Source: Siniperca chuatsi (taxonomy: Eukaryota; Chordata; Actinopteri; Centrarchiformes; Sinipercidae). From it: a stretch of 64,000 bases of DNA. Positions 38,154-49,579 of the stretch are shown one piece after another (the first letter of the stretch is position 1; the number at the start of each line of letters is the position of its first letter). The notes under the pieces were generated by a model. That model was not told the origin of the DNA. It ran no database searches and was given only the letters and a program-made list of their open reading frames with translations. The position numbers and the translations under genes are program-made. Where the stretch lies: NCBI RefSeq assembly GCF_020085105.1, contig NC_058045.1, positions 5,718,333 through 5,782,332 on the forward strand, written 5' to 3'.

Positions 38154-41100
38154 ATGCCTGAGTCTCCTCTCAGTCCCACGGCAGCCCGTCAAACCCCAGC
38201 CAGCAGCCTCCTCAGTCACACAGACAACGGTGCAGGAGAGAGAGTAGCTAATGGGGACTCCTGCAGTGGAGTGAGTGGTGAAAGCTGGCAGAGTCTCCAC
38301 AATAAACAGGTATCTTCATCCTCCTCCTACTCCTCAAGCCCCCCCTCATCCTCCTCTTCTCCCTTCGTCTCTCTTCGTCTCCTCCTCTTCATAAGCGGGA
38401 AATAGAACAGTCTTAGGCAAACAGATGTCAAGAGAAATACCGCACATCAGCTCCATATTGGACGTCCTCTGACAGGACACCAAACCCAGAGCCTGTAGCT
38501 CTGTTGACAGTGGCAGGGATTTCATATGAGATCTGATCCAAGATGGGAGTTGACACACAGAACTCTGTTTGTCCTTCATTATTAGTTTGTGAGTCAGAGC
38601 CAGGGAGGAATAATTGTCCACAGACCTAGGCCAAACAGATGCAAGTGAAAGGCAAATAAGCATGGCCCAACATAATTTTATGGTTGTCTGTTGCGATTCC
38701 ACCCTTGGGAATCTTAATCTAAGGGATCAATGAAACAACCACGATAATGAACGCCTGGTCACCACCGTTTCCTTCAGCTTGTTCCCTCATCTGTCAGTTT
38801 TGCTCTGCTCTTTTCTCTTAATTCACTTTCTAAACCTGTACAAGGCTCTCAACTACAGAATTTTAACAATATAACAAAAAACATTGCCACTGTCCATAGT
38901 AAAGGGTCTGCTAGCACTTTCTGCAACTGTGTGAGCTGAATTTTTAAACGTGTTATATTTTTGAACATGATGATTATAGTAAGTGACAATGTCATAACGC
39001 CACTGTTGCAACGTTACCTGCCAGAGTGTGATTCCAGTCTTCAAAACATAATAATGGCTTGTGATATGAAAGTTTTTCAACCTGAAAACCTCTGAAAACG
39101 TTACAAATGAAGACTGGTTTTCTCTTATAATGAAAGAGAGGGACCTCCATCTGTAATGTATTTCTTTTCTAACTGTAGCATCCAATCCACACACCACAAA
39201 TAGTTACCCTGTGATTTATAAAGCATGGTAATGAAGCCACCTGTATGTCAGTGCCGTCTTTAAAACTACACACACAAGAAGAGTCAGTAAAGACACAAAA
39301 AATGTAAGACTAAGGCTGCAAATAGCAATTATTTTCATTATCAATTAATCTGTCCAGTATTTTTATGATTAATCGATTAACTGTTTACTCAATAAATTGT
39401 CAGAAAGGCTGATCACAATTTCCCGTCTTTAAATAGCTTGTTTTGTCTAACTAAAATTGTTGGAGAATTTAACAGGTATGTGGTGGGGTAAGGACATACC
39501 CTATACATTTTTACACAAAGTGACTTTTGTTAGACGCACGAGGTTTAATAAGGTTACCAAAAGTGGTTACCAAACCACTTTTTTCCTGTTCCCCCTACAT
39601 TTAGAGAACCTTTTTGTGCATGTAAATATTGTAAATAGTCAAATAAATGCTGCACATTTTCTGCTTATTCCACCACTTCTTTGTTCATGCCATTCTTTAG
39701 TGCTGACTGTCATGTTACTGTCTCTGGAACAGGGGATGTGACACAGTACAAAAACCAAAGACATTTAAGAGGCTGTAAATGCTTGAACACAATAAATAAA
39801 TAACAAAATATAAATAATTGTATAAGCTTTTAAAATTGTCAATTTTTTGTTGATCGACTAATCAAGTAATCCACGGATTGCTAAATAAGACCAAATCATA
39901 CATGTCTACAAGCACTGCAGATCGTTGCTGTGCCAAAGTGTGAATTCTTTATTCTCAGTTCCACTGTTCTTAACTTTCTAGTTGTCTTATCAGTCTGGTC
40001 GAAACACAGGAGGTATTATCTCAAAGGTCTGAGAACAAAAATCACAAACTTGAGGTCCCTGATGTGTTCTTTCATTACATCCTGCAAGCCGCTAAGATAT
40101 TACTCTCATATAGACATACTGTAAGGCTTCACTGAAACCTATGAAGAACATCATGTCACAGCCTTTACACATCTGTATACAGCGATTGACATCCTATATG
40201 TAGACAATGAGAGATATTCACCATTTGAAAAAGTGTCATAAACTGTTCACATAATAAATTATATTTTACCCAACAATCAATTGACAGCACTAGTATAGTT
40301 TTTCAGCATTGTTTGTAAAACAACATGTTGGATTTGTAAGAGGCTTTTGTTGTTTCAGTCATGGCAATTGATGTTGCCTCTGTTTGGATACAAAAGGAGA
40401 CAATCATTCTGGTTATTTGTCACTCAACCAGTACCAGTGCAGATCCGTTATTATTCTATGAGTGTTTGCCTTTATTAATACCCATACACTTCTATTAGGA
40501 GTCACAACAAGCATGTAATTGTGTTGCTAATTAACTGGCTAGCCTATCTCCCATCTCATTTAGGGTCAATGACACAATCCAGCATGATGATGTTCACAAA
40601 AGGTTGACAGCACTGTTTTGTAATTGGATTGGAAAGATTCCCATTCAATGGTTATTACTGTTTAACACCTGACACTTGCCTTCTGTCCCACTCACTGAGA
40701 GTAGACTGTGGTCCTTTGTCATTTAATCTTTCCTCCTCTTCTTGAAGGTGTTCCTGGCTATGATGGCTCCTCAGCAGATGCAGCCGCTTCTGTCCCCCAA
40801 CCAGCTGCAGGCTCTGATCCACCAGAAGCAACAAGCCCTTCTGCTCCAGCAGGTATTTATGCAATATTAACACTAATATAGGTACAATGATTTGTAATAA
40901 TAATACACTGCACTCTGGTTTACTGGACCATACATGTGCAGAATAAAGTTTGAGTTTTTTCTCTTGTATACAATAATTCAAATTACATTTGACTGAAACT
41001 ACTGTAAATTACTGAGTGCAATATAACATTTACATTAGCCAGTTAGTTAGCTTAGTTGTCCGTCTAAGTTGGATCTCAGGTAAAGTAATATAGTACTATA

Positions 41101-47100: not shown

Positions 47101-49579
47101 GAAGTTATTTCTTTCTTTACTTAACTTTAAACATTGTATAAGTAACTTAGATGTAATATATTATTTAATTCCCTTTGTAGACTAATTGCATAATTTACAA
47201 TTCAGAGCAATTCATGTTTTCTCCATTGATTTTTACTCTGTGTTTTCCTGTTTTGTATTCGCTGGTCCCTAGACTGTGAACATTTTAGTGTTGGAGGCCT
47301 TTCTTGCCGATAAATGACCTCTCTATGTGCTGTATTTCTATGTTCATGTTGATTGCCATGTGAGCTCATTCGTTTGAATCAGCAGTGTACAGCTGAAACA
47401 TCGACAGAAAATGAATTGGCAACTATTTTGATAGTCCATTAATCATGTTAATTAAGTAACTTTTTCTAGCAAAAATGCCTCCTGGTTCCAGTTTCTTAAA
47501 TATGAATATTTGCTGGTTCTCTTAGTTGCCTATGATAGGAATTTAAATAGGTCCTCCTTCCTTGGATCAGAAGTGAATTTAATTTGATCTTGTAATGTGC
47601 TACAGTTTTTTTATTTCTCCTCCATCTACAGGCTATTATGGAAACATCAGACATGCAACTAACACTCAACGAGATATACAACTGGTTCACACGGACGTTT
47701 GCTTATTTCAGACGCAATGCTGCCACTTGGAAGGTATCCCACCCCCAGATAATTAACTCTGTGATTCCAGTGTGTGTCATTCCTGATTTGTGCAGCATGT
47801 ATTCAGTAATATCTCCATCACTCTGATTTTCTCTGGATCAGAATGCAGTGCGCCACAACCTGAGCCTGCACAAGTGTTTTGTGCGTGTGGAGAATGTGAA
47901 AGGAGCGGTGTGGACAGTGGATGAGGTGGAATACCAGAGCAGGAGGTCCCAGAAGATCACAGGGTACAGTACATGACTTCCTGTTTATCACAGCACTGGT
48001 ATCATGGTATCTGCATGTATTTCAGTTCAAACTTAATGATATTTAAGACATTTACTTAATTTGTTAAAAACAACAAATGATACCATTTCATTGGCAAAAA
48101 GTGCTGAAGCAAAGATACTCAAGGGTTTTCCATCTTTGCTTCAGCATTAAAGTAGAAAAACAGAAAAAGGTGTATCGCCTAATATTTAGCGGAGTCTAGG
48201 CTGTTTAACATGCGAATAAATCATAAATCAAAATGTCATTATTGCGAGATATAAAGCACAACATGAAGACTGAATAAAAGACAATTTTAACTGCCCCAGA
48301 TCAAATTTCATATTTTTCCTTACATTCTTTTTATACATTTAAAGTTTTTTTTTTACCTTAAATTTCAAAAAGAAAAATGAAAGAAAACATTTGAAGTATC
48401 TGCAATTGACACCACCGTGTTGTCATCAGAGTCAAAATGAACAAAATATTTAGTCCTGTGTCCAATGTAGGTCCAATGTAGGCCTCAGTAAATGAATGAT
48501 AAATATGGCTGAACTGATCCAGGTGACAATTTCAAGGCTCTACTTCAATGTTCTTTCCTGATTATTCATGTGACTGAATTATTTGTCATCTTAAGACCTT
48601 GCCTCAAACTATTGTTGTTAACCATGTTGTGGCTTGTGGAATATATACTATGTATTGATTTGCTTTCCATGAATTAGACATGGATTGTCTCCGTTTTGAA
48701 ATTCTGTTACGTTTGTTATTCCACAGGAGTCCGTCGCTGATGAAAAATGTGTCCTCCAATCTTGATTTTGGGACCGTTCGGAATGCCAGCTTACAGGTGA
48801 GAGGATGTTAGAGCACATCTTTCAAACAACACTGGCTTCTGTGCAATATCCACCGTCTCATTGTAATCTTAATAGGCTACACTTAACTTGACAGTTTATG
48901 CACTATTACTTACTACTTGTACTATTACATTGTATTATTATACTGTATTATTATCATCAACCGGTAAACTGGCTTTGTACTTTATCCTTATTTTAATTTT
49001 ATACTTATACCCACTTGGTACTTAATTTATCTGACCTGTATTATAGTGTATTATATTTTTTGCTTAGTACTTCTATTCCTGTGTGCACTGACGTGATAGT
49101 GAGCAGCTGGAACAAAAGAGTTTCCCCTCGGGGATCAATAAAGTATTTCTGATTCTGATTCCTGATTACAGGAGTTTGAAGTGGTTGAGGTCACTGTGTG
49201 ATTTCTGATCAATCTTCCTTGTAGACGGCACTGGCTGAGGCATCACTGCCAGGATTCAAGAAGGAGTGTGTCAGCAGCAAGTCCAGGAGTCAAATACAGG
49301 AGAATAAAGCAACAAACAGCCACAGTAAACAAAACCCCTCTCCACGAGTCCAGCAGTGAGTTTTGTTTATTGTGAACTCTAAAAATCAATGAAATGACTG
49401 ATGTGCTGCAATTATTGATCAAATTGTCTTTGTTTTTCACCTCTTGCAGGTCTCTTTTCCTTAAAGACGAAGCGCTGAGTCTGAATGACCAAGAATCTCT
49501 GATGCCAACAATGAAACCAGCCAGTCTGCAGCATGACATGACTGAAAATGACGAAGAGCATCTGTTTGACCTTGAATGA
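38154..49579 (+). CDS. foxp2: Divergent, compact forkhead box P protein (FOXP2-like)
   Basis: Fifteen coding exons: 38154-38309, 40748-40852, 42165-42251, 42898-43006, 43706-43883, 44308-44412, 45231-45318, 45798-45935, 46705-46894, 47008-47078, 47632-47733, 47842-47963, 48727-48796, 49225-49355 and 49450-49579. Phases all agree; total 1782 nt (593 residues; human FOXP2 715). Order: short Gln-rich region (about 60-150), C2H2 zinc finger C230/C235/H248/H253, leucine zipper with V270/L277/L284/L291, and forkhead at about 398-484 with [13 protein letters not shown]. Relative to human FOXP2 the forkhead has about four changes (e.g. YNWF, DMQL, YQSRR); SQKITG favours FOXP2 over FOXP1/4. The C-terminal third, the linker before the forkhead and the N-terminus are strongly diverged. 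The CtBP motif PLNLV and the RRR run are missing. FOXP proteins are dimeric repressors. AATAAA at 50551 follows. It may be a second foxp2 copy rather than the canonical one. Confidence 0.92.
39311..39880. mobile_element. Family A terminal-inverted-repeat element, degraded copy
   Basis: Begins aggctgcaaatagcaattattttcattatc, related to the right end of the 3735-4107 element. The far end, near 39850-39880, carries gatcgactaatcaagtaatcc in the inverted sense. It lies in intron 1 of the foxp2-like gene and is non-coding. Confidence 0.5.
41440..41840 (+). mobile_element. LINE 3' end fragment
   Basis: A plus-oriented tail in intron 2 of the foxp2-like gene. It includes ctggaacaaactcccagaaa and the block aagcacgttgaattgcctt, followed by ggtgctatacaaatta and ccttgcct repeats. 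This is a very common 3' end of fish L2-type LINEs. Only the last few hundred bases remain. Confidence 0.65.
44455..45210. mobile_element. 756-bp MITE inside the foxp2-like zinc-finger intron
   Basis: Terminal inverted repeats: left TTAAAGGAATACTCCAGTGA; the right end, read on the other strand, is TTAAAGGAATACTCCACTGA. Non-coding interior. The element fills almost the whole intron between the zinc-finger exon (ends 44412) and the leucine-zipper exon (starts 45231), leaving only 20 bp between its right end and the acceptor. Confidence 0.85.
47390..47545. mobile_element. Family A element fragment
   Basis: Contains gacagaaaatgaattggcaact, aaaaatgcctcctggttccag and a following ttctc block, matching the interior of the 3735-4107 element. 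It sits in intron 10 of the foxp2-like gene, between the two exons encoding the start of the forkhead. Confidence 0.5.

Follow-up and report, generated by a model that had tools for sequence, protein, structure and literature searches.

In 2013, a study of synteny, gene trees and selection described two foxp2 genes, FoxP2a and FoxP2b, as products of the teleost genome duplication (PMC3857310). Paralogons around them were recognised in three fish, with 6, 8 and 9 linked gene pairs; FoxP2b is present in medaka, tilapia, Tetraodon, salmon and cod and was not found in zebrafish. In the forkhead set of that study omega was 0.139 for FoxP2b versus 0.030 for FoxP2a, selection on FoxP2b was relaxed, and positive selection was probable in the neoteleost FoxP2b ancestor (PMC3857310). 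Here we analyse a window of 64,000 nucleotides (nt) from a Siniperca chuatsi assembly (G000, C4:5718333-5782332), in which positions 38154 to 49579 encode a FOXP protein. At a probability of about 0.85, we read this gene as foxp2b from the teleost-specific duplication, kept beside a separate foxp2a and encoding a DNA-binding, dimerising FOXP protein with an altered effector part. Because the 2013 paper describes FoxP2a and FoxP2b, the finding is known in kind; a first-pass annotation of the window had called the gene a possibly overlooked second foxp2, and the word "overlooked" has to be dropped.

The coding region comprises 15 exons (Table 1). All 14 introns are bounded by GT-AG, their phases agree, and the 1782-nt coding sequence translates into 593 amino acids (aa) with its sole stop at the end, as the first-pass annotation had it, down to the residue count and the 11.4-kb span. 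A chance origin of such a 15-exon FOXP frame is not credible; the structure lies far beyond chance. In Pfam searches the protein matched FOXP-CC (117.7 bits, residues 224-292) and Forkhead (94.3 bits, residues 398-475), both above cut-off, and thus has the order that defines the FoxP family: C2H2 zinc finger and leucine zipper (FOXP-CC) come first, and a FOXP-type forkhead comes after them.

Table 1. Positions in the 64,000-nt window of the foxp2b exons and of the features discussed with them
Feature	Position	Strand	Remarks
foxp2b coding span	38154..49579	+	15 exons, 593 aa
foxp2b exon 1	38154..38309	+	start codon; N-terminus rewritten
foxp2b exon 2	40748..40852	+	match to foxp2a exon 3; foxp2a exon 2 without counterpart
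foxp2b exon 3	42165..42251	+	carries EFYKKQQ block
foxp2b exon 4	42898..43006	+	Gln-rich
foxp2b exon 5	43706..43883	+	one block, divergent thereafter
foxp2b exon 6	44308..44412	+	zinc finger, initial portion
foxp2b exon 7	45231..45318	+	end of zinc finger and leucine zipper
foxp2b exon 8	45798..45935	+	end of zipper and divergent linker
foxp2b exon 9	46705..46894	+	linker; without PLNLV motif
foxp2b exon 10	47008..47078	+	forkhead
foxp2b exon 11	47632..47733	+	forkhead
foxp2b exon 12	47842..47963	+	forkhead including recognition helix
foxp2b exon 13	48727..48796	+	
foxp2b exon 14	49225..49355	+	C-terminus, divergent
foxp2b exon 15	49450..49579	+	SUMO-like LKDE site, acidic tail, stop
intron-1 noncoding element common to foxp2b and foxp2a	38494..38738	.	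77% over 248 columns
intronless forkhead gene, candidate FoxQ2III	34673..35707	+	344-codon frame; forkhead 100.4 bits (Pfam)
ppp1r3a	28002..33883	-	two open reading frames, 28002-31385 and 32945-33883

The search for a second, conservative foxp2 that the first-pass annotation had proposed was made in the whole assembly (718.8 Mb in 65 contigs) and was successful. On contig C23 (13.34 Mb) lies foxp2a, which we built from 200 kb of that contig: 16 coding exons encode 759 aa over a coding span of 58,915 nt, and the product equals a provisional human FOXP2 sequence at 584 of 678 aligned residues. The foxp2b product equals that sequence at 320 of 567; between the two fish proteins, 327 of 576 aligned residues are the same. 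The coding span of foxp2b is about one fifth that of foxp2a. The earlier statement that foxp2 is very long, also in fish, holds only in part, foxp2a having a coding span of 58.9 kb.

The forkhead search of the assembly gave 91 matches, with 99 of 99 candidates scored. FOXP-CC matched at least 12 exons at no fewer than six loci, two exons per locus and the window locus among them, and these counts are lower bounds. From the 10-kb stretches around five split-exon forkhead places, examined for FOXP identity and named against PDB forkheads, we read the six loci as two foxp2 genes, two foxp1-like genes, foxp4 and foxp3. The sequences suggest foxp4 at 21.06 Mb and foxp1 at 27.65 Mb of C2, foxp3 at 0.28 Mb of C10, and a divergent foxp1-like gene at 23.66 Mb of C10. 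In this last gene (G000:C10:23652000-23661900, locus L011) the exons matched by foxp2b are packed within ~4.4 kb, and the compact, fast ohnolog pattern may be repeated in foxp1. A foxp1 locus also carries, downstream of the usual recognition-helix exon, a second, differing copy of it (L010:2617-2724, - strand), which we take to resemble the alternative exon 18b of FOXP1.

Conservation is unevenly spread along foxp2b. Its C2H2 spacing and leucine-zipper register are unbroken, with the same patterns in foxp2a and human FOXP2, and its forkhead differs from that of human FOXP2 (PDB 2a07) at 6 of 92 aligned positions, counted by eye. Identity to the provisional human sequence is 90/97 in the forkhead and 58/77 in the zinc finger-leucine zipper (ZF-LZ) region; it is 110/199 in the N-terminal part, 24/73 in the linker and 37/109 in the C-terminal part. 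The description in the first-pass annotation, of intact zinc finger and zipper and a near-identical forkhead within an otherwise rewritten protein, is therefore accurate. With the provisional human FOXP2 as outgroup, 183 residues have changed in foxp2b alone versus 15 in foxp2a alone. Nei-Gojobori nonsynonymous divergence (dN) was 0.049 for the forkhead, 0.136 for ZF-LZ and 0.34 overall, with a synonymous divergence (dS) of 2.49, which is saturated, so that dN/dS is merely indicative. By the dN values, constraint on the forkhead and ZF-LZ of foxp2b persists.

A tree of FoxP forkheads (10 rows, 90 columns), its fish rows all taken from this genome, placed foxp2b with FOXP2: foxp2b falls together with foxp2a and human FOXP2 at a support of 93/96, not starred, and within this group foxp2a and foxp2b pair at 69/73. 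The Asn that foxp2b has in IYNWFTR is shared with FOXP1 and FOXP4, which could suggest that the window gene is a paralogue of one of these, or else the sole foxp2 of the genome. We consider this highly improbable, as two foxp1-like genes, foxp4, foxp3 and foxp2a are present at loci of their own, and approximately unbiased (AU) tests argue against placing foxp2b with FOXP1 (p-AU 0.026) or FOXP4 (p-AU 0.020).

The neighbourhood points the same way. A copy of ppp1r3a adjoins foxp2a on C23 (a 642-nt match at E 1e-66, with the C-terminal part at E 5e-8), and its orientation relative to foxp2 is the same there as in the window. To the notion that foxp2b arose from foxp2a by recent local duplication or by retroposition we give next to no credence: nothing was found in its favour, and the 14 introns, whose phases parallel the foxp2a phases, the duplicated neighbour ppp1r3a and the saturated synonymous sites all speak against it. 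Together, the separate foxp2a, the grouping with FOXP2 and the duplication of ppp1r3a alongside support the second-copy (ohnolog) reading. Both copies also share a noncoding element in intron 1 (Table 1), whose counterpart on C23 is reverse-complement 91330-91576; kept despite the compactness of foxp2b, it is possibly an old enhancer.

Several observations weigh against the assignment to foxp2b. None of the 7 inner branches of the FoxP tree is starred, and the tree is short of power; it did not recover the FOXP1 and FOXP3 groups, and its FOXP1 row (PDB 2kiu) contains two odd, probably engineered residues. Only one linked gene pair, ppp1r3a, was seen between the foxp2b and foxp2a segments; for the bmt2-, tmem168- and mdfic-like frames of the window, a search at E 1e-3 of the examined 200 kb of C23, which contain 2,649 N bases, gave no match. 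The saturated dS belongs here as well, as does the use of a provisional human sequence as reference and outgroup.

The main rival concerns the fate of foxp2b rather than its identity, namely that it is a relaxed, partly redundant copy heading for loss, without a distinct role. Rapid change across most of its length would fit such decay, as would the one exon missing relative to foxp2a; a relic of this exon (foxp2a coding exon 2, 30 aa), sought in foxp2b intron 1, gave weak, chance-like matches only. Relaxed selection on FoxP2b and the failure to find it in zebrafish (PMC3857310) are also in keeping with loss. However, the 15-exon frame is open, the forkhead is near-identical and ZF-LZ is intact, and the presence of FoxP2b in the five other fish named above implies that it has long been retained (PMC3857310). 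On balance we regard decay as unlikely. Foxp2b as a pseudogene was ruled out by the undisrupted frame.

Judged from its sequence, then, foxp2b is an intact gene whose binding and dimer parts are preserved. Its protein would still bind forkhead sites, and the zipper would dimerise with itself and with foxp2a, foxp1 and foxp4; dimerisation through the FOXP zipper is apparently required for activity (PMC5126810). The effector part appears altered: the N-terminus is shorter and poorer in Gln (a fraction of 0.182 in residues 1-220, versus 0.300 in foxp2a), the linker and C-terminus are rewritten, and PLNLV, present in foxp2a and human FOXP2, is gone. A SUMO-like LKDE is retained near the C-terminus. 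We suggest that foxp2b may tune FOXP repression in a subset of the foxp2 tissues rather than substitute for foxp2a. Against a changed effector function, CTBP2 binding is reported not to require PLNLV, and the part of human FOXP2 that counts more may be residues 259-329 (PMC5126810); foxp2b retains the start of this region. Lost recruitment of CtBP is therefore a possibility only. In foxp2b the DNA-binding and dimer parts are held while the effector parts drift, so that nature itself tests here which regions of FOXP2 are needed, a question first raised in 2013.

Like the FoxP2b genes of other teleosts (PMC3857310), the window gene is a second foxp2, lies in a segment that was duplicated, has shortened stretches around its conserved domains and evolves fast. 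It also has the R523M and S532N of FoxP2b, with the numbering fitted by hand, whereas residue 520 is Thr in place of the Ala of the neoteleost ancestor (PMC3857310). In contrast to that paper, which calls the exon composition of FoxP2b obscure, we give a full 15-exon model. In exon 11, foxp2b retains Glu519 (human FOXP2 numbering), while foxp2a has Asp. Since E519D is held to predate the duplication (PMC3857310), either Glu519 is a reversion here or the change arose on the foxp2a branch. Both the model and the Glu519 extend the published account slightly. Relative to FoxP2a, domain order is shared and intron phases are parallel, but foxp2b has 593 rather than 759 aa, covers 11.4 rather than 58.9 kb, lacks PLNLV and has one coding exon fewer.

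The candidate FoxQ2III next to foxp2b is the more novel part of the locus, foxp2b being ordinary in kind. In amphioxus, lamprey and skate, FoxQ2III is found near FoxP genes and is expressed in the gut, and bony fishes are stated to have lost it (PMC12828049). The window contains an intronless forkhead frame (34673-35707) between ppp1r3a and foxp2b, with 2.4 kb from its end to the start codon of foxp2b. It has an ATG at 34682, TATAAA at 34528 and AATAAA from 36503 onward; the chance expectation of such frames in the window, computed from stop frequency, is ~3e-5.

Its forkhead had 46 matches in the assembly, including itself, the next best being 46% identical. A partial match at C6:20.332 Mb (G000:C6:20331900-20333050, - strand, locus L059) has a forkhead interrupted by an intron and contains GKGHFWAIHPSNYQDF, which we take to be a FoxQ2 motif; the FoxQ2 label comes from this putative motif, by which the C6 gene is probably FoxQ2I of bony fishes. 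In a 25-row tree, for which 21 of 34 non-FoxP forkhead loci were chosen by hand, 13 near-copies omitted and most multi-exon forkheads left outside, the window gene joined the C6 gene at 98/97, starred, with both branches long. Eight other groupings were tested, and those with the FoxD, FoxQ1, FoxL2, FoxE and FoxG rows (class names being our own labels) were rejected at p<0.05.

The gene looks like a FoxQ2 in the FoxQ2III position, a class label drawn partly from putative motifs. We think it quite probable that it is a FoxQ2III surviving in a bony fish, at its ancestral place by a FoxP gene and on the foxp2b segment only. It resembles FoxQ2III of amphioxus, lamprey and skate in that a FoxQ2-like forkhead directly adjoins a FoxP gene (PMC12828049), a likeness of position, and it differs in occurring in a bony fish. 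Some results count against this assignment. The AU test keeps groupings with FoxF (0.066), FoxN (0.16) and FoxP (0.23). Forkhead identity is 44/94 to the C6 gene and 44/93 to each of the FoxD and FoxQ1 rows, and its highest share is with the FoxG row (53% over 73 columns), so that identity alone gives no pointer to FoxQ2. In PMC12828049, FoxQ2I is the remaining FoxQ2 of spotted gar, which is outside the teleost duplication. The main rival is that a FoxQ2I retrocopy landed beside foxp2b by chance.

No second copy was detected by tblastn at E 10 in the 46 kb between ppp1r3a and foxp2a on C23. Among the matches listed in a full-text literature search, FoxQ2III of bony fishes appears in no title or start of an abstract, the check going beyond these for PMC12828049, PMC10218681 and PMC9539403; three FoxQ2-like letter strings had no match in the literature search. 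If correct, a FoxQ2III in this fish would overturn the loss stated in PMC12828049. Its restriction to the foxp2b segment would explain why it was missed in zebrafish, which reportedly lacks foxp2b, and the two neighbours could share gut-type regulation.

Among the flanking frames of the window, Bmt2 and CBM_21 are named by Pfam. The CBM_21 match is to 32945-33883, the only one of the two ppp1r3a frames with a family match; the other frames of the ppp1r3a-, tmem168- and mdfic-like genes had no Pfam match, and these three gene names are provisional. Over the window, ARAGORN (bacterial settings) found no gene and Rfam gave no match at gathering scores. Positions 15689-15881 and 3760-4092 are shared with C23 at 84% and 68%, respectively, and look to us like dispersed repeats rather than gene relics. 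On the - strand, 22822-23190 holds an open frame that by eye resembles part of the reverse transcriptase of a retrotransposon.

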